A stretch of DNA of 24,067 nucleotides, from IMG/VR virus record IMGVR_UViG_3300048999_000092, positions 1 through 24,067 of that record; one strand, given 5' to 3'. Below the pieces are notes generated by a model that searched no databases, had not been told where the DNA came from, and worked only from the letters and a program-made list of their open reading frames with translations. Below are positions 8,120 through 24,067 of this stretch, piece after piece; the stretch's first letter is position 1, and each line of letters opens with the position of its first letter. The stretch is from a virus. A program made the position numbers and the translations under genes.

Positions 8120-9265
8120 ATGTCGAAGCCACAGGTAACCCTGACTCTGGCCGGCGACGAGTCGAAGCTGGACAAGGCGTTCGCCGCGGTCGGTGCCTCG
8201 AGCAAGAAGATGGCGGATGAGGTCGGCGCGTCGAGCAAGCGGGTAGGCAAGGAGACCAGCGAGTCGTTCGAACGGACCAACGCGGCCGCCGAGGGGACGT
8301 ACGACAAGTTCGATGCACTGGAGTCGGTGGGCCGCGGTACCACGGACACGATGTCAGGGCTCGGCGAGATCATGTCCGGCAACATCCTCCAGGGCTCTAC
8401 CGACCTCGCAGGCGGTGTCGCCGCCCTGGCGGACGGGTTCACCGGCGCCCTGCTCCCGGCGATCAAGGCTGCTGCCGCCGGCGGCCTGGCGAACGCTGCC
8501 GCCACGGCTCGACAGACCGCGGCGACCCTCTTGTCGAAGGGGGCCGCGATCGCCTCGGCCGCGGCGACGAACGTCATGGCGGTCGCTCAGAAGGCGCTGA
8601 ACCTGGCGATGCGGGCCAACCCGATCGGTCTCATCATCACCGCGCTGACCCTGCTGGTCGCCGGCCTGATCTACGCGTACAAGCACTCCGAGACGTTCCG
8701 CAACATCGTCAACGGCGCCTTCCATGCCGTGCTGGGCGTAGTGCAGGCGGTGGTGTCGTGGATCCGGAACAACTGGCCGCTGCTGCTGAAGATCCTGACC
8801 GGCCCGATCGGGCTCGCGGTCGGCGTGATCGCCAAGCACCGCGACTCGATCGTCGGGTTCTTCAGGTCGGTGCCTGGGGCAATCGCCGGATTCTTCAAGG
8901 GTGTCGCGTCGACGATCACGGCGCCGTACCGGGCCGCGTTCAGCGCGATCAAGTCGGCCTGGAACAACACGGTCGGCGGTAAGGGGTTCTCGGTGCCCGG
9001 TTGGGTCCCTGGCCTTGGCGGTAAGGACTTCCGGATCCCGTACTTCCACACCGGCGGCATCGTGTCCGGTGCGATGGGGTCGGAGACGCTGGCGGTACTG
9101 AAGGCCGGCGAACGGGTCACCGGCGGACGGAATTCCGGGGGCGGCGTCACGATCGTGCTCCAAGGCGACGGAACCGCGGCCGGTACGGCACTGATGGAGG
9201 TGCTGCGGAAGGCGATCAAGGTCACCTCGGGCGGCGACGTCCAGGTTGCGCTGGGGGCCCGGTGA
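8120..9265 (+). CDS. Tape measure protein (short)
   Basis: Sets tail length and is ejected ahead of the DNA. The 381-aa protein has a helical N-terminus (DESKLDKAFAAVGASSKKM), a long Ala/Gly-rich middle, and hydrophobic segments around residues 170-195 (ANPIGLIITALTLLVAGLIY) and 215-245 that could span a membrane. The C-terminal part has the Gly/Pro-rich turn and GGIVSGAMGSETLAVLKAGE motif common at the ends of tape measure proteins. A GGAGG lies about 11 bases before ATG 8120. Using the usual rule of about 0.15 nm per residue, the tail would be near 57 nm, which is short. The stop overlaps the next GTG (GTGA). Confidence 0.88.
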   Translation: MSKPQVTLTLAGDESKLDKAFAAVGASSKKMADEVGASSKRVGKETSESFERTNAAAEGTYDKFDALESVGRGTTDTMSGLGEIMSGNILQGSTDLAGGVAALADGFTGALLPAIKAAAAGGLANAAATARQTAATLLSKGAAIASAAATNVMAVAQKALNLAMRANPIGLIITALTLLVAGLIYAYKHSETFRNIVNGAFHAVLGVVQAVVSWIRNNWPLLLKILTGPIGLAVGVIAKHRDSIVGFFRSVPGAIAGFFKGVASTITAPYRAAFSAIKSAWNNTVGGKGFSVPGWVPGLGGKDFRIPYFHTGGIVSGAMGSETLAVLKAGERVTGGRNSGGGVTIVLQGDGTAAGTALMEVLRKAIKVTSGGDVQVALGAR

Positions 9266-15704: not shown

Positions 15705-16502
15705 TCAGGACGCGGCAAGGCGTCGTACGGCTTCTACCTTGGCTCGGTTCGCCACCTCGGTATAGATCTGAGTTGAGCTGAGCGACTGGTGCCGCATCAG
15801 CTCCTGAGTCACCCGCAGATCACGCGAGCCGCGCAACGTGTGGGTGCCGAACCAGTGGCGCAGCTGGTGGGCGGTGACGGCGTACCCGCACCGCCGGAAT
15901 GCCTGCGACACCGTCCGCGACACGGAGTTCGGCGTGACGTGCCCCAGGCGGCTGCCGCTAGGGAACCACCAACCCTCATCAGGGAAACCCCGCTGCAACT
16001 GCTGTACGACCTGGTGCACCGGCAACGCCGACAATTGGCCGCCCTTGCCCGTCACGTACAACCACTCGCCCTGGAAGTGCTCACCTTGGACCTTCGCGAT
16101 CTCGTGGACCCGCAGGCCCTCGAATGCCGCCAGCGCGATGTAGGCCCGCGCTCGCCTCGGTGCCACCTCGAGCACTGCGCTAAGTGCTGTCGAACCGGCG
16201 GGCCGAGGGATCCCCTTAGGCTGCGGTGGCCGCGGTACCCGCTCGGTCGGATCGTCATCGCGTAGCCCCTGCTCGACCAGCCACTGGTGCCAGGCGCGTG
16301 CCGATGTCGCGTACGTCTTCCGGGTCCAAGGGCTACGGCAGGCGGCGAGCCAGTTGATGATGTCCATGGTGGTGAGCGCGCCGGGGTCTTCGGCGCCGGC
16401 ATGTGCGCAAAGAGAGCGGATTCCTCCGATCCTCGTGTCGACCGTTTTCTCGCTTGCTCCGGCTGCTCGCATCCACTGTGACCACATCTCCAGGCCGTCC
16501 AT
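15705..16502 (-). CDS. int: Tyrosine integrase
   Basis: Site-specific recombinase that inserts and excises the prophage. The 265-aa protein has an N-terminal SAM-like core-binding domain (residues about 1-90: MDGLEMWSQWMRAAGAS, TRKTYATSARAWHQWL). A catalytic domain follows with all expected residues: Arg131 (GLRVHEI), Lys153 (VTGKGGQ), His212 and Arg215 (AHQLRHWFGTH), His238 (LMRHQSLS) and nucleophile Tyr247 (TQIYTEV). ATG 16502 is chosen because GGGAGG lies eight bases upstream; an in-frame codon at 16583 would overlap the repressor gene. At 265 aa it is compact and lacks an arm-binding domain. It follows the repressor gene by 22 bases in the same operon. Confidence 0.93.
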   Translation of the reverse strand: MDGLEMWSQWMRAAGASEKTVDTRIGGIRSLCAHAGAEDPGALTTMDIINWLAACRSPWTRKTYATSARAWHQWLVEQGLRDDDPTERVPRPPQPKGIPRPAGSTALSAVLEVAPRRARAYIALAAFEGLRVHEIAKVQGEHFQGEWLYVTGKGGQLSALPVHQVVQQLQRGFPDEGWWFPSGSRLGHVTPNSVSRTVSQAFRRCGYAVTAHQLRHWFGTHTLRGSRDLRVTQELMRHQSLSSTQIYTEVANRAKVEAVRRLAAS

Positions 16503-16524
16503 GGGACAGGCCTCCCAAAGGCGT

Positions 16525-16968
16525 TCACGCTGCCACCTGCACGGTCTGTGCAGGTTGTAACCTTCCAATCGTTGGAAAGTCACCGAGTGTTACAGGCTCG
16601 CGTGAATACCTAGCGGTAGTCACCGGTGGCGGCTCCGGTAGGTCGCCGCGGCCGCCGAGGAGTGTTGCCGGATGCACCCCGAGCGCGCCGGCAACGGCCT
16701 CAAGGTCATCGGTGGTGAACGGCGTCTTGCCCCGGAGCCGCTCCGAGAGGCTCTGCTGGGACATCCCGATCGATCGTGACAGCTGGACCTGAGTCACCTG
16801 CTGTCGGGCCATCTGCGCGCGCACTTCCGCTGCGACCAGGTCTGTCAGCCTGAACGGCGGTACCGCCTTGAGGGTGTGCTCATGACGAAGATCGTAAACG
16901 CTGAACCGGTCACCTACAAGGTGAGAAAGTAGATGAGCGTGCCAAGGGCGAGCGCTACTGGTTGACAC
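16525..16968 (-). CDS. Phage repressor, HTH (CI-like)
   Basis: A putative lysogeny repressor with a Xre/Cro-type helix-turn-helix: VRAQMARQQVTQVQLSRSI, then GMSQQSLSERLRGKTPFTTD, then LEAVAGALGVHPATLLGG. This region matches, residue by residue, the HTH of the divergent gene at 16999, so they are paralogues. The C-terminal 40 residues are Pro/Thr-rich without a peptidase domain. The start is uncertain. GTG 16968 (147 aa) has no ribosome site but stands seven bases from a TATAGC -10-like box, fitting leaderless translation. Inner GTG/ATG codons would cut the first HTH helix. Integrase follows in the same operon. Confidence 0.78.
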   Translation of the reverse strand: MSTSSARPWHAHLLSHLVGDRFSVYDLRHEHTLKAVPPFRLTDLVAAEVRAQMARQQVTQVQLSRSIGMSQQSLSERLRGKTPFTTDDLEAVAGALGVHPATLLGGRGDLPEPPPVTTARYSREPVTLGDFPTIGRLQPAQTVQVAA

Positions 16969-16990
16969 AGTACTGGCTATACCGGTAGAA
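16962..16990 (+). promoter_or_regulatory. Rightward early promoter
   Basis: TTGACA (16962-16967), a 17-base spacer, TAGAAC (16985-16990). The predicted transcript start falls at or next to ATG 16999, eight bases after the -10 box. No ribosome site exists there, so the mRNA is probably leaderless. It overlaps two exact copies of ACTGGCTAT. Confidence 0.65.
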
Positions 16991-17000
16991 CACTGGCTAT
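16972..17000. promoter_or_regulatory. Operator-like direct repeats ACTGGCTAT
   Basis: ACTGGCTAT occurs at 16972-16980 and 16992-17000, 20 bp apart (about two helical turns). A weaker version (ACTGGTT) starts at 16957. The copies lie on the leftward -10 box and between the rightward -10 box and start codon, where a repressor would be expected to bind. Confidence 0.55.
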
Positions 17001-17005
17001 GACAG
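16976..17005 (-). promoter_or_regulatory. Leftward lysogeny promoter (tentative)
   Basis: On the minus strand: CTGTCA (17005-17000), an 18-base spacer, TATAGC (16981-16976), then seven bases to GTG 16968. It overlaps the rightward promoter, so one protein bound here could control both. The -35 match is modest. Confidence 0.45.
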
Positions 17006-17235
17006 AGAGCACAGCCGCAGTGCAGGTCGGGGAGAACGTCCGACTGGAGCTGGCACGGGCACGCAAGTCGCAGAGCTGGCTTGCCGGCGTCCTTCAGATC
17101 TCTCAGCAGAGCGTCTCGTCCCGCCTCCGCGGCGAGGTCGCCTTCAACGTCGACGAGCTGACGCATCTCGCGGCCGCCCTCGACGTGTCGGTGGCTTCGC
17201 TGCTCGCAGAGCCGCGGCAGTCCGCCGCGTCCTGA
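16999..17235 (+). CDS. Cro-like HTH regulator, paralogue of the repressor
   Basis: A 78-aa DNA-binding protein that consists of little more than a helix-turn-helix domain: VRLELARARKSQSWLAGVL, then QISQQSVSSRLRGEVAFNVD, then LAAALDVSVASLLAE. It shares the SQQS-S-RLRG core and the following helix pattern with the divergent gene at 16525-16968. First gene of the rightward operon, with a promoter directly at its ATG and no Shine-Dalgarno sequence (likely leaderless). By position it should be the Cro-type lytic regulator, although the reverse assignment cannot be excluded. An excisionase role is less likely given the Xre-type fold. Confidence 0.83.
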   Translation: MTESTAAVQVGENVRLELARARKSQSWLAGVLQISQQSVSSRLRGEVAFNVDELTHLAAALDVSVASLLAEPRQSAAS

Positions 17236-17237
17236 TC

Positions 17238-17311
17238 GGTCGGCCCGCGCAGCGTTGCCTCTCGCGCGCCGGCAGTGGTTCCCCCCGTCTGCTGCCCCGC
17301 GTGGGCCGACC
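17238..17311. other. Intergenic region with 9-bp inverted repeat
   Basis: The 103-base gap 17236-17338 holds GGTCGGCCC (17238-17246) and its inverse GGGCCGACC (17303-17311), 56 bases apart. It could fold into a long-range stem after the Cro-like gene. I see no clear promoter. Confidence 0.3.
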
Positions 17312-17338
17312 CCCAATCGTTGATCGGAGCAACAACCC

Positions 17339-17854
17339 ATGAAGCAGTTCCCGCAGTACGCGGACCGGCCTCCGGTCGTCGTCGACCAGTACGAGCTGGT
17401 CCACGCGGCCGAGGCCCGGCGGCCGCGGCGTACCCCGCCGACCGGCGCGATCCTGTTCGCGATCGTCGTCGCCCTGGTGATCGTCGCCGTCGCTGGCTGG
17501 CTGGTGATGACCGACAGCCCCGCTCGAGGTGCCGCCGACCACGCCGCCGTACCGAGCGCCCGGCCCGGCCCGGCCGTCCCGCAGCACAAGACAGCCGAGA
17601 AGTCGCCGGCGGCTCCGACCTCGGTCAGCGAGGACGGCATGTACATCGTCGGGAAGCAGATCAGGGTTGGGACGTACCGCGCGACGTGCGGTACTCGGTC
17701 GACGTGCATCTGGCAGCGGTACCAGGCGCTCGGTGGGGTCCTGACGTCGGTGGCCGGCGGTACTGCGATGCCGGGGCAGTCCGTGGTGGTCGAGCTGGGT
17801 AAGGCTGACTTCAGCTTCGGAGTGCTCGGCTTCGGCGTCTGGACGATCCGGTGA
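17339..17854 (+). CDS. Membrane-tethered extracytoplasmic protein
   Basis: A 171-aa protein with a short cytoplasmic start, a strong membrane segment (AILFAIVVALVIVAVAGWLV, about residues 37-56), a Pro/Ala-rich linker, and a C-terminal beta domain. That domain carries DGMYIVGKQIRVGTYRAT, a cysteine pair (ATCGTRSTCIW), and ends in FSFGVLGFGVWTIR. The domain resembles a small module common in secreted actinobacterial proteins (pattern: G-x-Y-x-V-G-x-x-I-x-x-G-T-Y followed by C and W). Predicted to be anchored with the domain outside. GGAG lies nine bases before ATG 17339. As an early or immunity-region gene it could modify the host surface or exclude other phages; this is inference. Confidence 0.78.
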   Translation: MKQFPQYADRPPVVVDQYELVHAAEARRPRRTPPTGAILFAIVVALVIVAVAGWLVMTDSPARGAADHAAVPSARPGPAVPQHKTAEKSPAAPTSVSEDGMYIVGKQIRVGTYRATCGTRSTCIWQRYQALGGVLTSVAGGTAMPGQSVVVELGKADFSFGVLGFGVWTIR

Positions 17855-18108
17855 GCGCCGACGTGGTTGCCCCTGAGCCCGAGATCGACTTCAGCAAGGT
17901 CGAGAGGCTGAGGCAGGCCGAGATCACTGCGATGTGGCGCGCACACTTCCGCCGGAAGGAGATGCGGGCGGAGAAGACGCCTGTCGCCAGAGCGCTCGGC
18001 GAGGCGCTGCTCGTGTTGTCCAGCCTCGGCTCGAAGTTCGAACTCAGTGACTGGGATCGGGGTCGTGCTGCCGATGCCGCGCGGCGCATCACTGAGGTGC
18101 TCTCGTGA
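17851..18108 (+). CDS. Small early protein, unknown function
   Basis: An 85-aa protein starting at GTG 17851, overlapping the previous stop (GTGA). Charged and helical (FSKVERLRQAEITAMWRAHF, RRKEMRAEKTPVARALGEAL). No metal site, membrane segment or recognisable family. It is one of four consecutive small genes joined by stop-start overlaps in the early operon, so it is probably translated by coupling. The basic helical middle could contact nucleic acid, but there is no specific evidence. Confidence 0.72.
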   Translation: MSADVVAPEPEIDFSKVERLRQAEITAMWRAHFRRKEMRAEKTPVARALGEALLVLSSLGSKFELSDWDRGRAADAARRITEVLS

Positions 18109-18673: not shown

Positions 18674-18980
18674 CCAAGAGCTGTCCCTCGAGCCCACCGA
18701 GCACGAGGGGCCACGGTCCGGGGGTGCGGCTGCTACCGCACCCCCGGACCCGATGACATCGGTCGAGTTCGACTCGATCGTCGCCCTCATCTGGCACGAC
18801 CTCGACAGCGACCGTTGCCGAGTCGGTGACCTCCTGGCCGACGCGCTCGGGTTCATCGGTGGCATCGCGCTCGGCGTCGACACCGACCCGCACGAAGCCG
18901 ACCGGGCAACCGCCGTACTGCGGGCCATGGAGCAGCGGGCCCTGTTCGGCCCCTACCACGACCAGGAGGACCACCGGTGA
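18666..18980 (+). CDS. Small early protein with internal hairpin, unknown function
   Basis: A 104-aa frame from GTG 18666. Its first 29 residues are low-complexity (Pro, Glu, Gly, Ala), and the folded-looking part begins at Met30 (MTSVEFDSIVALIWHDLDSD, then LLADALGFIGGIALGVDTDP). A perfect 15-bp hairpin (18715-18750) lies in the low-complexity segment, just before ATG 18753. The true start could therefore be 18753 (75 aa), with the hairpin as a regulatory element. The stop overlaps the annealing protein gene (GTGA). Family not recognised. Confidence 0.68.
   Translation: MADQELSLEPTEHEGPRSGGAAATAPPDPMTSVEFDSIVALIWHDLDSDRCRVGDLLADALGFIGGIALGVDTDPHEADRATAVLRAMEQRALFGPYHDQEDHR
18715..18750. other. 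Perfect 15-bp hairpin inside the early operon
   Basis: GGTCCGGGGGTGCGG (18715-18729), loop CTGCTA, CCGCACCCCCGGACC (18736-18750). It is as strong as the terminator at 14768 but lies within an open frame, three bases before an in-frame ATG. Candidate attenuator, transcription pause or translation control element. Confidence 0.6.
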
Positions 18981-20008
18981 CCGTCACCGACACCCCACCG
19001 GCCGACGTTCCGGCACCACCACCAGCCGAGCCCAGCATCGCGAAACTCGCAGCCGCGCTCGCCCGCGTCCAGGTCGAGCTGCCCCCGATCCGCAAGGCCG
19101 AGACCGGCGAGGTGTCCGGAACCAACAAGGACGGCAAGTTCTTCAGCTACAAATACTCGTACGCCGACCTGGCAGCGGTGTCCGCCGCGATCATGCCGCT
19201 GCTCGGCAAGAACGGGCTGTCGTTCACCAGCTGGCCGTCGACGACCCCGCGCGGATTCATGCTCCGGTACTACCTGCTGCACGAGTCCGGCGAGCAGATG
19301 GCAGGCGAGTACCCGCTCCCAACTGGTGAACGGGTCACAGCACAGCAGCTCGGCTCGGCGATCACCTACGCCCGCCGGTACTGCCTATGCGCAGTGACCG
19401 GTGTCGCCCCGGATGACGACGACGATGCGGCCGCGGCCGATGGTGCGAAGGCCCAACAGCGGGCCGAGCAGCACGAAGAGCTCGACGCCGAGCTCTCACA
19501 CGCTCGTGACGAGGTACGGGGCGCATGGGCCACGCAGTACGGCCCGTTCGACCAGGCGAAGGCCGGTGAGATGTTCAAGGCCTGGTCCAAGGGCACGACG
19601 TTGCTCGGGGCTACCGCTGGGCAGCTCCGAGCGTTCGCCGGCTACATCCACGCCCAACCGGCAGCGGACGCCGGCAGTGAGCCGACCGTGCTGCCGCCCG
19701 CCGAGAATCCCGCGACCGACAAGCCGCCGGCCGAGCCGCGGAAGATGACCAAGCTTCAGCAGGGCAAGCTGTTCGCCCTGTTCAGCGACATCGGGTACAC
19801 CGCGGCCGCCGACCAGCGCTCGTTCCTGTCGAAGGCCTTGGAACGCGAGATCAAGTCGCGGTCCGAGCTGACCGTGGACGACGCGAAGATCGTGATCGAC
19901 ATCCTCGAGGAAGCCGTCTCCGGGCCTGCCGCCGGCGCCCAAAGCGCGTCCGGTGAGACCCGTGTGCCTGCAGGCCCGGAGACACCACCTGAGGACGGTG
20001 GGCGATGA
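18977..20008 (+). CDS. erf: ERF-family single-strand annealing protein
   Basis: Recombination protein that anneals complementary single strands, used in phage replication and genome circularisation. The 343-aa protein shows the ERF core: FFSYKYSYADLAAVSAAIMP (residues about 55-74), LGKNGLSFTSWP, a strand pair with LRYYLLHESGEQMAGEYPLP, and the conserved QQLGSAITYARRYCLCAVTG (123-142) followed by an aspartate run (146-150). The remainder is a Glu/Ala-rich linker and a helical C-terminal domain (MTKLQQGKLFALFSDIGY) that may bind a partner such as the host SSB. GTG 18977 overlaps the previous stop. It pairs logically with the RusA-like resolvase gene downstream. Confidence 0.88.
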   Translation: MTVTDTPPADVPAPPPAEPSIAKLAAALARVQVELPPIRKAETGEVSGTNKDGKFFSYKYSYADLAAVSAAIMPLLGKNGLSFTSWPSTTPRGFMLRYYLLHESGEQMAGEYPLPTGERVTAQQLGSAITYARRYCLCAVTGVAPDDDDDAAAADGAKAQQRAEQHEELDAELSHARDEVRGAWATQYGPFDQAKAGEMFKAWSKGTTLLGATAGQLRAFAGYIHAQPAADAGSEPTVLPPAENPATDKPPAEPRKMTKLQQGKLFALFSDIGYTAAADQRSFLSKALEREIKSRSELTVDDAKIVIDILEEAVSGPAAGAQSASGETRVPAGPETPPEDGGR

Positions 20009-20136
20009 GCGAGCCGCGGTACGACTACGGCGAGACGGGTTGCCTGTCCTGCGGGTCGGTGATCGTGCTCGCGATCGGCACGCTCGGCCTGATGGGCTGG
20101 TACGTCGTCGAGGTGCTCCGGATGGTGCTGTCGTGA
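20005..20136 (+). CDS. 43-aa membrane protein, unknown function
   Basis: A very small gene with ATGA overlap at the start and GTGA overlap at the end. The product has a CLSCG motif at residues 13-17 and one hydrophobic segment (SVIVLAIGTLGLMGWYVVEV), so it should be an inner-membrane microprotein. Coupling on both sides is the main evidence that it is real. No function can be assigned. Confidence 0.65.
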   Translation: MSEPRYDYGETGCLSCGSVIVLAIGTLGLMGWYVVEVLRMVLS

Positions 20137-20435
20137 CCCGGCGGAGCAAGACGGCACGGCGTACCGGTGCGCCCACGTGCGGCGGCTGCGGGGCGCGCGT
20201 GGTGTTCGTGAAGATGACGTACACCGGCAAGCGGCTGCCCGTCGATCCGCTGCCCGTTGCTGACGGCAACGTGTGTGCCCGACGCGTCGGCAACTACCTC
20301 CACGGCTGGGTTATCTCGGCCGAGCACCCCGCGGGCGGCCCGCCGATCTACCAGCGGTACGTCGCGCACCACGCCACGTGTGCCGATCGGCCGGCGCCCA
20401 AGGAACGCCCTGAACCTCCGCCCGCCCTGTTCTGA
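20133..20435 (+). CDS. Zinc-ribbon-like small protein
   Basis: A 100-aa protein with GTG start overlapping the previous stop. A basic N-terminus is followed by TCGGCGARVVFVKMTYTGKR with CxxC, then LPVDPLPVADGNV, and a later HHATC that completes a likely four-ligand zinc site. This pattern (CGGC, 'K-x-x-P-V-D', final H-x-x-C) is widespread in actinophage early regions. The biochemical role is not known to me; nucleic-acid binding is plausible. Confidence 0.75.
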   Translation: MTRRSKTARRTGAPTCGGCGARVVFVKMTYTGKRLPVDPLPVADGNVCARRVGNYLHGWVISAEHPAGGPPIYQRYVAHHATCADRPAPKERPEPPPALF

Positions 20436-20458
20436 ATCCCAACCCACCAAGGAGAACC

Positions 20459-20809
20459 GTGACCAGTGAAGTGAAGCTCGCCGGGCGCCTGCCTGCCTCG
20501 CCCGAGAGCAACGGCATGGGGTCGGTGATTGCCGACCTGCTCAAGACGCCCAAGGAACAACGCCTGTACGTCGTCTGGGGCGACGTTCTGAAGATCGAGC
20601 GGAACCTGGACACCGGCGACGAGGTGCCCACGCTGCGGGTGCTGAAGATCGAGCCGCTCGGCCTGGTCGACGAGGTGTCGCAGGCGATCCAGGTCGAGGT
20701 GATGCGGAAGGCCGAGGAGCGCCTGGGTCACACGCCGCTGCCGTTCGACCAGCACGACCCGGACGGCGTGACCCTGCTGCCCGGCACGGGTGACGAGGAG
20801 GAGGACTGA
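20459..20809 (+). CDS. Early protein of unknown function
   Basis: A 116-aa acidic protein with AAGGAG ribosome site before GTG 20459. It has a folded-looking centre (QRLYVVWGDVLKIERNLDTG, then VPTLRVLKIEPLGLVDEV) followed by a helix (AIQVEVMRKAEERLGHTPLP) and an acidic tail. No catalytic or metal motif. Its position between the annealing protein and the resolvase suggests a link with recombination or replication, but this is only context. Confidence 0.72.
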   Translation: MTSEVKLAGRLPASPESNGMGSVIADLLKTPKEQRLYVVWGDVLKIERNLDTGDEVPTLRVLKIEPLGLVDEVSQAIQVEVMRKAEERLGHTPLPFDQHDPDGVTLLPGTGDEEED

Positions 20810-21036
20810 TGCCGCGGTTCAGCAACCCGTACGACGACATGCTGACCACGGCCAAGGTTGAGCAGCTGCTCGAGCAGTTCGGCGCCGACGACTTCACCGA
20901 CTCGCGCACGCTCGCTGACCACCTGGTCGCCCGGTCGACGCTGTGCGAGTTCCTGACCAGCAAGGGCCAAGTGCGGATCACGTACGACCTTCGCCCGCAG
21001 GCCGACACCCCAGCACCAGCACCGGATCCCGAGTAG
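20809..21036 (+). CDS. Small acidic early protein, unknown function
   Basis: A 75-aa protein whose ATG overlaps the preceding stop (TGATG). Helical N-terminal part (YDDMLTTAKVEQLLEQFGAD, then SRTLADHLVARSTLCEFLTS) and a Pro-rich end. No motif recognised. Translational coupling and direct continuation into the RusA-like gene (two-base gap) place it in the same recombination block. Confidence 0.72.
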   Translation: MPRFSNPYDDMLTTAKVEQLLEQFGADDFTDSRTLADHLVARSTLCEFLTSKGQVRITYDLRPQADTPAPAPDPE

Positions 21037-21038
21037 CG

Positions 21039-21503
21039 GTGACCGAGTGGGCCGTGATGTTCCACGGCGACCCGGTGACGCAGGGATCGATGACCTGCAA
21101 GGGCAGACATCTGCCCGGCAGTCACCAGAACCTGCAACCCGACAACGAGACCGAGCTGAAGCACTGGCGCGCTCTCGTTGAGAAGGCCGGGCGGGCCCTA
21201 CCAGTCACGGGGCTGGTAGGGCCCCTGCGTGTGCGCGCTGTCCACACGATCGCGCGGCCGCGCACGATCCCGCTTCGGGTCCGCGCCTGGCCGATGGTCG
21301 TCGGTAGCGGCGACGTCGACAAGTTCGGCCGCGCGCTGCTCGACGGCCTCGCGCAATCCGGTGTCTTCGGCAACGACGCCCAGGTCTGCCACCTGAACAT
21401 CGCGAAGCGCTACCCCGACTCCCCATCCGTCCCGTGGATCAACCGGGCCGATCACCTCGACCGGCCCGGCGTAGTGATCCGCATCTACCCGATTGGAGCG
21501 TGA
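21039..21503 (+). CDS. rusA: RusA-like Holliday junction resolvase
   Basis: Dimeric endonuclease that cuts four-way DNA junctions so that replicating or recombining DNA can be packaged. The 154-aa protein has the RusA pattern: an N-terminal strand with FHGDPVTQGSM, then GSGDVDKFGRALLDGLAQSG with Asp92, Asp94 and Lys95, and VFGNDAQVCHL with Asp113. These match the catalytic acids of the family. GTG 21039 is selected because it follows the previous stop by two bases; the ribosome site is weak, so coupling is likely. It works logically with the ERF-type annealing protein upstream. Confidence 0.88.
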   Translation: MTEWAVMFHGDPVTQGSMTCKGRHLPGSHQNLQPDNETELKHWRALVEKAGRALPVTGLVGPLRVRAVHTIARPRTIPLRVRAWPMVVGSGDVDKFGRALLDGLAQSGVFGNDAQVCHLNIAKRYPDSPSVPWINRADHLDRPGVVIRIYPIGA

Positions 21504-21510
21504 CCCACCC

Positions 21511-21873
21511 ATGGTGATGATCCAGAGCCCCGAGCTGCCCGACCCGCAGCCGGCGCCTGAGGGCTGTATCTGCCGCGACGCTCCCGGCTGGTACCCCGGA
21601 CGCCCGTCAGCCGAGCTGTGCCCCGTCCACGGGCCGCACGCGCGCGTCTGCCCGAGCGTCCGTTTCCTGACCACCAGCTGGCGCTCCGAGGGCGCTGGAT
21701 GGCGCTGCCCGCCCTGCGGAGCGCAGTGGACCCTGACCCGCGTCACCGAGGCCCCTGAGCCCCACGTGACGCCGCACGGCACCCATCCACGCAGCGAGTG
21801 CGGCCCGCAGTGGTGCAGCCTGCTCCCGCCCCGCCCGACGATGCACTGGGTACGCGACGAGGTGGCCGGCTAA
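21511..21873 (+). CDS. Cysteine-rich zinc-finger-like protein, unknown function
   Basis: A 120-aa protein with many paired cysteines and histidines: CICRD, CPVHGPH, VCPSVRF, a clear RCPPCGAQW ribbon, and CGPQWCSLL. It probably binds more than one zinc ion. GGAG at 21495 supports ATG 21511, though ATG 21517 and an upstream TTG 21493 are alternatives. The stop overlaps the next ATG (TAATG). It belongs to a run of Cys/His-rich small proteins in this part of the genome. Confidence 0.72.
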   Translation: MVMIQSPELPDPQPAPEGCICRDAPGWYPGRPSAELCPVHGPHARVCPSVRFLTTSWRSEGAGWRCPPCGAQWTLTRVTEAPEPHVTPHGTHPRSECGPQWCSLLPPRPTMHWVRDEVAG

Positions 21874-22037
21874 TGGCTGGGCTACTGGGGGTAGCCGCGT
21901 ACGTCGTACTCGTCGCCGCCGGCGTGCTCGCGTTCGCCCACGTCGTCATCAGCTGGCCCCGCGGCTTCGCCCACCAGTGCAGCGCGATCGCCGTCGTGCT
22001 GTTCGTCGAGCTCGCCGCCCTGTGGGCCGCCTCGTGA
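21873..22037 (+). CDS. 54-aa two-segment membrane protein, unknown function
   Basis: Starts in a TAATG overlap and ends in a GTGA overlap. Two hydrophobic segments (GVAAYVVLVAAGVLAFAHVV and CSAIAVVLFVELAALWA) are separated by a short loop (SWPRGFAHQ). It resembles a holin in shape, but its place in the early operon, far from the endolysin, argues against that role. Function is open. Confidence 0.68.
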   Translation: MAGLLGVAAYVVLVAAGVLAFAHVVISWPRGFAHQCSAIAVVLFVELAALWAAS

Positions 22038-22207
22038 GCGCCACACTGTTCGAGGACGGCTGCCCGGACGAGCAGCACAGCTGGACCGAGCCCGTCGTGA
22101 GCGAGACGTCAATAGGCACCTTGACGGGCCGCACATGCCAGGTGTGCAAGCTGAACTGGGTCCAGCTCACCCGCCCTGACGGCTCGACGTTGGGGTTGGC
22201 CGGATGA
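22034..22207 (+). CDS. 57-aa zinc-finger-like protein, unknown function
   Basis: GTG start overlaps the previous stop (GTGA), and its own stop overlaps the next ATG (ATGA). The sequence has CPDEQHSW and a later TCQVCKLNW, giving a C-x-x-x-x-H and CxxC set that fits one zinc site. It lies directly before the winged-helix gene. A DNA-binding accessory role is possible but not shown. Confidence 0.7.
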   Translation: MSATLFEDGCPDEQHSWTEPVVSETSIGTLTGRTCQVCKLNWVQLTRPDGSTLGLAG

Positions 22208-22584
22208 GCGGCCGGATCGTCGGCGAGGTCCTCGACCACGCACCCGATGACCTGCGACCCCTCGACTTCCGCGTGTTGATCGCCCTCGCCGAGGACGCGT
22301 TCGACAGCGACCGTACGGCCCGCAAACGCTGCTCGGCCGAGGAACTGGCGTACCGCGCTCGGTCGACCCCGGGAAGCGTCCGACAGGCCCTCGTGCGGCT
22401 TCGCGAGCGCGCCCTGATCCGGCCCGTCCACACCAAGGTCGGGCCCGGCCGGCAGCAGAACTGGGTGATCGCCCAGCTGTCCAGCCACCACCGAGAAGGC
22501 GCCCGGATCATCCCGCTAACGCGTGACCGCCAGGGGTCACACGATCCGCCCGACGAACACGTGACTCCCAGCGGTAACGCGTAG
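22204..22584 (+). CDS. Winged-helix DNA-binding protein, candidate replication initiator
   Basis: A 126-aa protein with a winged-helix fold: PLDFRVLIALAEDAFD (helix 1), CSAEELAYRARSTPGSVRQA (helices 2 and 3, recognition), LVRLRERALIRPVHTKVG (helix and wing). ATG 22204 overlaps the preceding stop. The last part of the gene contains the first ACGCGT repeats of a repeat cluster that continues past its stop (22518-22648). This is the arrangement of initiators that bind iterons in or beside their own gene. The C-terminal tail (QGSHDPPDEHVTPSGNA) is shaped by these repeats. Initiator is my preferred reading; a transcription regulator is the alternative. Confidence 0.72.
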   Translation: MSGRIVGEVLDHAPDDLRPLDFRVLIALAEDAFDSDRTARKRCSAEELAYRARSTPGSVRQALVRLRERALIRPVHTKVGPGRQQNWVIAQLSSHHREGARIIPLTRDRQGSHDPPDEHVTPSGNA

Positions 22585-22660
22585 CCCCTGTGGATAACCA
22601 AGCAACGCGTTACCAAACGCGTTACCAGAGGGCCTCGAACGCGTGACCGCTGGAGGTAAC
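22518..22660. repeat. Iteron-like repeats, candidate replication origin
   Basis: Consensus AACGCGT(T/G)ACC occurs at 22518-22528, 22604-22614, 22616-22626 and 22638-22648. An inverted copy (GGTAACGCGT) is at 22573-22582, and half-sites at 22535-22540 (GGTCAC) and 22655-22660 (GGTAAC). Five ACGCGT cores fall within 126 bp. A DnaA-box sequence lies among them. The cluster overlaps the end of the winged-helix gene. Confidence 0.72.
22589..22597 (-). other. DnaA-box sequence
   Basis: TGTGGATAA on the plus strand, which is TTATCCACA on the minus strand, the classical DnaA-box consensus. It sits between the inverted and direct ACGCGT repeats. In this high-GC genome such an A/T-containing 9-mer is notable. 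Binding by host DnaA is inference. Confidence 0.6.
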
Positions 22661-22684
22661 ACCACCCGTAAAGACCACCCGTAA
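22661..22684. repeat. Tandem direct repeat ACCACCCGTAA
   Basis: Two exact 11-base copies at 22661-22671 and 22674-22684, offset by 13 bases, directly after the iterons in the gap 22585-22738. They are followed by the inverted repeat CCAC...GTGG (about 22686-22700). Possible part of the origin or a control site for the next gene. Confidence 0.55.
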
Positions 22685-22738
22685 CCACCGTAGTTAGTGG
22701 CGGGCCCCCGCTCTTAGGTGTCCCCGGAAGGACCCACG

Positions 22739-23167
22739 ATGACCGCACTGACCGACCCCCGGCCGATAGCCACATCCGGCCCCGTCTGGATCAACACCGA
22801 GATCCAATCCGCACGCCTCGCCGCCGAGGTCGAGGACCTGATCGAGGCCAACCCCGAGCTCGAGCTCGCCTCGCTCCGGATCATCGTGCTCGAGCAGCGG
22901 CCCGACTCGCTGCGGGTCGAAGTCGTTGCCCGCGTCGGCGCACTGGTCGACGGCGAACCCGGCTGCCCGTCCTGCCACGTACACGGCGCCCAGCCCCACA
23001 CCGAGTACTGCCAGCTCGTCGACCACGCATCACAGCTGACCTACCGCGAGCTGTACGGACCGCCGGCGGCACGACAGTGCGACGACCCCGAGCCGCACAA
23101 GGCGCACATCCGGTTCGACGACAGCCCGCACAACGTCTGCCCTGGACGGCTGGTCCGCCGCCGATGA
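22739..23167 (+). CDS. Cys/His-rich protein, unknown function
   Basis: A 142-aa protein with GGAAGGA upstream of ATG 22739. The N-terminal half is an alpha/beta segment (NTEIQSARLAAEVEDLIEAN, then LASLRIIVLEQRPDSLRVEV). The C-terminal half has CPSCHVHGAQPHTEYC and later CDDPEPHKAHI and NVCPGR, suggesting two zinc sites. It opens the transcription unit after the candidate origin and overlaps the HNH gene (ATGA). Small proteins ending with the 'D-x-P-x-P-H-x-x-H' pattern occur widely in actinophages, without known function to me. Confidence 0.74.
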   Translation: MTALTDPRPIATSGPVWINTEIQSARLAAEVEDLIEANPELELASLRIIVLEQRPDSLRVEVVARVGALVDGEPGCPSCHVHGAQPHTEYCQLVDHASQLTYRELYGPPAARQCDDPEPHKAHIRFDDSPHNVCPGRLVRRR

Positions 23168-23463
23168 GCAAGGGCTGGGCAGGCGGCAGCACCTGGGCCT
23201 ACCGCAAGCTCCGCCGCTTCGTCCTTGCCCGCGACAACTACCTCTGCCAACTCCACCACCCCGGCTGCACCACCATCGGCAACCAGCTCCACCACCTCGA
23301 CGGCGTACGCGCCGGCAAGGTCTGCCCACCCAACCGAGCAGTCGCCTCATGCGCCAACTGCAACATCCGTGAAGGCGACCCGACCAAGACCAAGGCCACC
23401 ACCGCTCGAGGTAGCCGGCCACCCGCTGACCCACCACCCAACCCACCACGCACCAACTGGTAA
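23164..23463 (+). CDS. HNH endonuclease
   Basis: A 99-aa nuclease of the HNH/bba-metal type. It shows RDNYLCQLHHPGCTTIGNQL with the first zinc cysteines, LHHLDG as the catalytic His pair, and NRAVASCANCNIREGDP with the conserved Asn and the second CxxC. ATG 23164 overlaps the previous stop. HNH proteins standing next to the large terminase are often required for DNA packaging and cohesive-end cleavage in HK97-type phages. In the circular map this one is two small genes ahead of the terminase, which fits that role. The Pro-rich tail (PPADPPPNPPRTNW) is probably disordered. Confidence 0.88.
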   Translation: MSKGWAGGSTWAYRKLRRFVLARDNYLCQLHHPGCTTIGNQLHHLDGVRAGKVCPPNRAVASCANCNIREGDPTKTKATTARGSRPPADPPPNPPRTNW

Positions 23464-23475
23464 CCGGAGGACACG

Positions 23476-23805
23476 ATGATCGAGGGACTGCACCAGATGT
23501 CCGACGCTGTGACCGTGCTCGTCAGCACCGACCTACTCGCCCAGCTCGAGGACGACTGGTCACCAGCCGTACAGATCCAGATCCGCCGCACACCCGGCAT
23601 CGGCAGCGGGTTCGAGATGATCGCCCGCAACCTTCGACCGATCGAGGACGCAGCCACAGCCGCAGCCGTGCCGACCTGTGACGCCGGGCACTGCACCGAG
23701 CCAACCGCCGCACTCGTCCCAACCAAGGACTTCGGATGGCTGCCCATGTGCCGAGCCCACACCGTGACCGAGCTCGCCAACCTCAGCGGAGAAGCGGACC
23801 GATGA
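23476..23805 (+). CDS. Small Cys/His protein before the terminase, unknown function
   Basis: A 109-aa protein with a GGAGGA ribosome site upstream of ATG 23476. N-terminal part: SDAVTVLVSTDLLAQLEDDW, possibly a small alpha/beta fold. C-terminal part: PTCDAGHCTEPTAALVP and MCRAHTVTEL, which supply a C-x-x-x-H-C and C-x-x-H zinc-type site. The stop overlaps the next ATG (ATGA). It lies between HNH and terminase genes, where a small terminase would be expected, but I see no small-terminase features in it. Confidence 0.74.
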   Translation: MIEGLHQMSDAVTVLVSTDLLAQLEDDWSPAVQIQIRRTPGIGSGFEMIARNLRPIEDAATAAAVPTCDAGHCTEPTAALVPTKDFGWLPMCRAHTVTELANLSGEADR

Positions 23806-24067
23806 CCAACCTGTTCGCCCACCTCGTCGACGCCATCGACCGAGCACGAACCGCACACCAATCCGACTTCACACTCACCACCAACGACGGCACCACCGTT
23901 TTTCCCCACCACCCCACCCCACAGACACCCGTTGTACCTGTCTTTTCTCTCCCCGCGGTTGGCCGGGCGACGCGTCTGGGGCTGGTTGCGCGTCCGCAGG
24001 ACTGCAATTGCGGTGCTTCGCAGGTCGCGCTGGTGGCTCACTGGGAGCACTGCGCCTCCCGGGTCCG
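23802..24067 (+). CDS. Small Cys/His protein, 5' part; completed at 1-140
   Basis: ATG 23802 overlaps the previous stop (ATGA). The frame is open to the contig end, and with the terminal repeat collapsed it ends at TGA 138-140, giving 92 aa. N-terminal part: MTNLFAHLVDAIDRARTAH, a short helix, then a Thr/Pro-rich segment (FPHHPTPQTPVVPVF). C-terminal part: the Cys/His cluster DCNCG and HWEHC. The stop overlaps the terminase GTG. No family recognised. It could be a packaging accessory or a very small zinc protein of the early type. Confidence 0.75.
   Translation, partial: MTNLFAHLVDAIDRARTAHQSDFTLTTNDGTTVFPHHPTPQTPVVPVFSLPAVGRATRLGLVARPQDCNCGASQVALVAHWEHCASRV
23941..24067. repeat. 127-bp direct terminal repeat, right copy
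   Basis: Exact copy of positions 1-127. It should be trimmed once to give a 23,940-bp circle. The gene starting at 23802 runs off this end and finishes at position 140. Confidence 0.95.

Follow-up and report, generated by a model that had tools for sequence, protein, structure and literature searches.

Iterons, a consensus DnaA box and a winged-helix gene as a probable replication origin of a small soil actinophage

Introduction

Replication starts of temperate actinophages without a helicase of their own are little described, and the genome of a small soil actinophage, analysed here as one stretch of 24,067 bp (the window), raises the question of where and how its replication would begin. 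An earlier note on this DNA had drawn attention to repeats with a consensus DnaA box at the end of a winged-helix (WH) gene, and had proposed that they form a phage origin served by host DnaA. Judged from sequence comparisons, the segment 22204-22700 is probably (at about 0.72) the replication origin of the phage together with its initiator, an iteron origin of the lambda-O-like type, whose initiator has only the WH domain and at which host DnaA would probably recruit the helicase.

Genomic context

The window begins and ends with an exact 127-bp direct repeat (1-127 and 23941-24067). Because 127 bp is a common assembler k-mer size and a gene starting at about 23802 reads across the joint between end and start, the sequence represents an assembly circle of 23,940 bp, probably the complete genome in circular or circularly permuted form. 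Its phage genes encode terminase, portal, capsid and tail proteins, a tyrosine integrase, HTH repressors, Erf, RusA and HNH proteins. A temperate immunity region comprises the tyrosine integrase and two divergent HTH repressor-like genes (15705-16583, - strand; 16525-17946, - strand, C-terminal part; 16999-17235, + strand). The 918-aa product of 9262-12018 matches phrog_5313 (E 3e-184), a family without known function, and more weakly resembles a phosphodiesterase family and minor tail proteins. No nucleotide relatives of 20000-24067 were found among phages, Rfam and tRNA searches gave no matches, and the GC skew of the window shows no clear origin signal.

The only clear sister phage found is L128, a 28,757-bp contig with the early region in the same order and flanking genes that are 32-84% identical (Erf 61%, 116-aa protein 84%, RusA 70%, 142-aa protein 32%). 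A terminase-based search for prophage relatives in 396 actinobacterial genomes returned a single distant one, and a search with the conserved 116-aa neighbour protein returned none. The early genes of the window are as follows.

18977-20008, + strand: Erf-family single-strand annealing protein; syntenic context, 61% identity in L128
20459-20809: 116-aa protein of unknown function; 84% identity in L128, the best-conserved early gene of both phages
20943-21503, + strand: RusA-like resolvase; syntenic context, 70% identity in L128
22204-22584, + strand: 126-aa WH protein, the proposed iteron-binding initiator; AF2 model and homology to initiator-like proteins
22739-23167, + strand: 142-aa protein of unknown function, the next gene after the array; kept in L128 (32-33%)
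23164-23463, + strand: HNH endonuclease; syntenic context, relatives in L048 and L049

Architecture of the iteron array

The sequence ACGCGTKACC (K = T/G) occurs five times within 130 bp (22519-22648) and nowhere else in the 24,067 bp, with copies on the + strand at 22519, 22605, 22617 and 22639 and on the - strand at 22573; shuffled sequences give 0.4 copies per window and 0.01 per 201 bp. A better repeat unit is the half-site GTKACC/GGTMAC, which is present as seven exact copies and one GTGACT (0.48 expected in the region). These half-sites form three palindromes of the type GTKAC(C/T)-N6-GGTMAC, starting at 22523, 22561 and 22643, with no others in the window and 0.03 expected, and their consensus is AACGCGTGACC-GCCAGC-GGTAACACG. 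In every pair, palindromic or direct, the half-site starts lie 12 bp apart. The features of the segment are listed below.

22518-22660: iteron array of eight half-sites GTKACC/GGTMAC
22523-22540: palindrome 1, GTGACC-gccagg-GGTCAC
22561-22578: palindrome 2, GTGACT-cccagc-GGTAAC
22589-22597, - strand: consensus DnaA box TTATCCACA (+ strand: TGTGGATAA), a perfect match
22604-22626, + strand: tandem direct iteron pair AACGCGTTACC-A-AACGCGTTACC, half-sites at 22609 and 22621
22643-22660: palindrome 3, GTGACC-gctgga-GGTAAC
22657-22696: candidate DNA-unwinding element, 40 bp within the least stable 0.43% of the genome

Four direct copies, one inverted copy and additional half-sites had already been recognised in the earlier note, and this description stands except that the inverted copy reads ACGCGTTACC and not AACGCGTTACC, and that the palindromic order had been missed. 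The overlap with the WH gene is likewise as described there, the array being made up of the last 67 bp of 22204-22584 and 76 bp past the stop codon. A crude 7-mer score taken alone is matched by 4 of 60 control segments of the same genome. The candidate unwinding element contains two tandem 13-mers, ACCACCCGTAAAG and ACCACCCGTAACC (22661-22686), and other stretches of the genome are weaker.

Two inverted iterons, GGTAACGCGTAGC and GCAACGCGTTACC (22573-22614), are complementary at 12 of 13 positions and enclose a 16-bp loop in which the DnaA box sits. As a single strand, 22510-22665 folds far better than shuffled sequences (z -5.3). No terminator was found in 22000-23200.

The winged-helix protein and its relatives

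The WH protein is modelled by AF2 as a winged helix (pLDDT 82), and it consists of this single domain. Profile searches against Pfam and PHROG gave no family above threshold, and tblastn against annotated phages and a plasmid collection gave no direct relatives. The protein is homologous to the N-terminal domain of a set of initiator-like proteins (L002-L025) from Streptomyces phages and integrated elements, which occur both in viral contigs and in 30 of the 393 Streptomyces genomes searched. Most of these relatives are longer (280-390 aa), and the 126-aa protein ends within the array without their C-terminal region. Two of them match PHROG replication-initiation families (L012, phrog_270, E 2e-26; L020, phrog_6643, E 6e-9). 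A DnaB gene follows the WH gene of L002, and a gene for a loader-like P-loop ATPase of the GTGKT type follows others.

The relatives carry repeats of their own, encoded in frame between the WH domain and the C-terminus. Of 41 WH loci tested, including the window, L128 and other phage loci, 39 have repeated 7-mers at 200-620 bp after the WH start that exceed all of 200 shuffles, the exceptions being L042 and L049. The repeat sites differ by group (GGGTCCGG, CAGTGTC, GGGTTCC, GGGTCAC, GGGGCCC), and the nearest WH neighbour belongs to the same site class in 24 of 27 cases, two classes being singletons. Mean WH identity is 74% within and 33% between site classes, a figure to which common descent contributes. 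The expectation that relatives would keep repeats at this position thus holds for nearly all loci and fails for L049, a phage with a 69% identical terminase whose WH-like gene lies at the same place without repeats and without a DnaA box. Two further contigs were found by terminase: in L053 a WH-like gene is accompanied by weak GTGTCC repeats, and the sequence of L048 begins after the WH region.

A scan of viral contigs at the DNA level only, which looked for the window iteron in two closely spaced copies, returned 20 stretches. Seven of the enclosing ORFs were tested, and six of them, which come from unrelated phages, match PHROG replication-initiation or primosomal families and have the sites in the linker that follows their N-terminal domain; the matches in L147 and L151 resemble repetitive coding sequence. 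A nearly identical iteron (ACGCGTGACC/ACGCGTTACC) was observed in the linkers of unrelated phage initiators of the DUF1376-type, phrog_16167 and phrog_9474 families (L136, L139, L143, L133, L135, L140), which would reflect either convergence or the sharing of sites between different WH families. Another Streptomyces protein of about 230-330 aa, present in 13 of 393 genomes (L026-L036, L038, L039), has linker repeats of the GGGTTCC type; it is perhaps the initiator of an integrated element, and L026 matches HTH_36.

The same array could be read as an operator, with the WH protein acting as a transcription factor, either a repressor of its own operon or a switch for the downstream 142-aa, HNH and terminase genes. 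Half-site palindromes are of a form used by dimeric regulators, the array extends into the gap between the WH stop codon and the next gene, and the nearest folds of the WH protein in the PDB are mostly transcription regulators. As a discriminator the fold search was set aside, with many generic winged helices among its matches and the initiator entries 4pt7 and 4pql among them. Against regulation, the array of most relatives is placed within the gene, at about 280-580 bp from its start and away from promoters, and the genes themselves adjoin DnaB or loader-like ATPases and match replication PHROGs. A search of 22000-23200 for promoters, which covers the sigma-70 type only, found none. An operator also leaves the retained DnaA boxes and the low-stability stretch unexplained, and this reading is considered improbable. 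The segment is most likely a replication origin, of a widespread kind in which iterons are tied to a WH initiator.

The DnaA box and the sister phage

The sequence TGTGGATAA at 22589-22597 is, as the earlier note had it, a consensus DnaA box among the repeats, and it is the sole TTRTNCACA in the window, where about 0.1 TTRTCCACA would be expected. All consensus boxes of the window (1/1) and of L128 (2/2) fall within a 2% segment between the WH start and the next gene; with about 0.1 expected per genome and a 2% segment, chance placement of TTRTCCACA has a probability of roughly 0.002 in the window and of the order of 1e-6 for the two boxes of L128.

In L128, the WH-like gene (8728-9144, 138 aa) also ends inside its array. 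Its product is not significantly similar to the WH protein of the window in pairwise BLAST (E 0.05) and gives E 1.7e-4 in a profile comparison with it; a single-sequence model of it was unusable (pLDDT 38). The iterons of L128, GGTGGGACGAATC (9116-9212), differ from those of the window. A 14-bp block containing the DnaA box, CCCTGTGGATAACC (22586-22599), is nevertheless identical in both phages, which indicates that the WH gene and iterons changed together while the box stayed, the conserved box resting on that single sister phage. A second DnaA box, TGTGGACAA, stands ahead of the L128 iterons, and 9200-9259, between iterons and DnaA box, is the least stable 60 bp of that contig.

Consensus boxes are absent at 36 of 37 other WH loci examined, so that the use of DnaA would be limited to a subset. 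The exception is the Pseudonocardia plasmid pPaSha2 (L043), in which a WH gene is accompanied by iterons AAAGGGGCCCA with boxes TTGTGGATAG and TGTGGACAA within the array. DnaA-like boxes in L057 and L075 were left out of the count, as they lie inside other genes near terminase. In pPaSha2 (L043 4001-4750), what appears to be the C-terminal part of the initiator follows the iterons in another frame, through a frameshift, an assembly error or decay.

The earlier note had seen no helicase in this genome, and targeted searches agree. Profile searches with DnaB_C and IstB were negative in the window and in L128, and the only P-loop motif in the window is that of the terminase. The P-loop pattern was backed by HMM searches, the combined reach being the P-loop, DnaB_C and IstB families and part of the small ORFs; the pattern can miss ATPases, as it finds nothing in L128, not even the terminase. 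The phage is thus without a recognisable helicase or loader family, and a non-P-loop loader or a diverged primase would escape the searches used. Since the C-terminal region of the relatives is lacking and the searches found neither a DnaB gene nor one for a DnaC-type loader, host DnaA would most likely bring in the host helicase.

The same searches bear on a role of the array in partition or packaging, as a parS-like or a pac/cos-associated site and not an origin. On the circular map, about 1.4 kb separates the repeats from the terminase gene downstream of them, and direct repeats also mark parS in parABS phages (PMC7157519). This phage has a tyrosine integrase, however, no ParA-type P-loop was seen in the window beside the sole P-loop of the terminase, and among relatives in other contexts iterons and WH genes vary together, all of which makes such a site very improbable.

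A closer competitor retains the iteron origin and assigns it to the WH protein alone, with the DnaA box incidental or modulating and the host helicase recruited directly by the WH protein or by another phage protein. The scarcity of boxes at the other loci is in its favour, several early genes of the window lack a functional assignment, and in the phage SoJo a helicase loader annotated beside the initiator has only a zinc-finger match, so that a loader can escape DnaB and IstB searches. It is rendered rather unlikely by the confinement of perfect boxes to the array segment in two diverged phages, by the retention of the 14-bp block despite the change of WH gene and iterons, and by the boxes in the pPaSha2 array.

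The proposal of a candidate origin in the earlier note is accordingly strengthened by relatives that match replication-initiation PHROGs, adjoin genes for DnaB or loader-like proteins and have repeats of their own at the corresponding position, by the joint replacement of WH gene and iterons in L128, and by the low-stability stretch beside the array. Its suggestion of a role for host DnaA gains less firm backing, from the retained box in L128 and the boxes in pPaSha2.

Comparison with known replication origins

At the lambda origin, dimeric lambda O binds four iterons of 19 bp each (PMC3985674). The present locus resembles it in having a phage initiator, iterons that overlap the initiator's own gene and weak DNA beside the array, and the same layout is found in the relatives L002-L025, several with an adjacent DnaB or loader-like gene. 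It differs in its WH-only initiator of 126 aa, in an array that runs beyond the stop codon and contains a consensus DnaA box, and in that searches revealed no P-like loader. The iteron plasmid origins of P1, F, RK2 and pSC101 (PMC4980987) share iterons linked to a WH initiator and a DnaA box, and their low-stability element has a candidate counterpart here; the plasmid Rep proteins have two WH domains, whereas here there is one, with palindromic as well as direct sites, in an integrase-bearing temperate phage.

Among Streptomyces phages, the initiators of SV1, Picard, SoJo and Eklok, annotated as replication initiation protein or RepA-like, have repeats in the initiator linker, and their early regions are similar (initiator, small genes and HNH, with ERF upstream in SoJo and Eklok). 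They differ in being full-length proteins with a C-terminal domain and in lacking a DnaA box, and the next gene in SoJo is the annotated helicase loader. In Streptomyces linear plasmids such as pSLA2 and pSCL1, the iterons bound by Rep1 lie inside the gene for Rep1 itself, which has a helicase-like Rep2 as its neighbour. An actinobacterial iteron-binding initiator, as proposed for the window, and a centrally located origin (PMC3583192) make these plasmids similar, the likeness being one of description; the plasmid collection gave no match to the WH protein. A comparable actinophage initiator with an HTH domain is the RepA (320-350 aa) of extrachromosomal cluster A mycobacteriophages, phages that have parABS instead of an integrase, for which the authors identified no repeats and suspected an origin within or beside the gene (PMC7157519). 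In mycobacteria, no DnaC-type loader has been identified (PMC5720831).

Proposed mechanism and biological significance

If the segment is an origin, the WH protein would bind the GTKACC half-sites, on the palindromes probably in dimeric form, and the resulting nucleoprotein complex would span about 140 bp, overlapping the 3' end of its own gene. It may bend or melt the adjacent weak DNA at 22657-22696. The protein lacks the C-terminal region of its relatives, whether through loss or from the outset, and host DnaA at the single box in the array would most likely recruit the host helicase, as in P1-type plasmid origins. More tentatively, and with somewhat more doubt than confidence, the origin may belong to a minimal actinophage class whose lambda-O-type initiator is reduced to its WH domain, with host DnaA recruiting the helicase through a box kept at the array, and with WH gene and iterons exchanged as a cassette around that fixed box.

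The linkage of iterons to a WH initiator is widespread among phages, and the kind of origin is therefore not new. The view that the combination was unfamiliar in actinophages has to be narrowed to this extent, and what still looks unusual is a WH-only initiator with an embedded DnaA box and no helicase. As a rule for searching, iterons in the linker or at the 3' end of WH initiator genes flag likely origins in many unrelated phages. If the proposed reading is true, some 500 bp of DNA would make up everything that this phage contributes to initiation, and the segment would offer a small handle on how DnaA brings the helicase to a foreign origin in actinobacteria.
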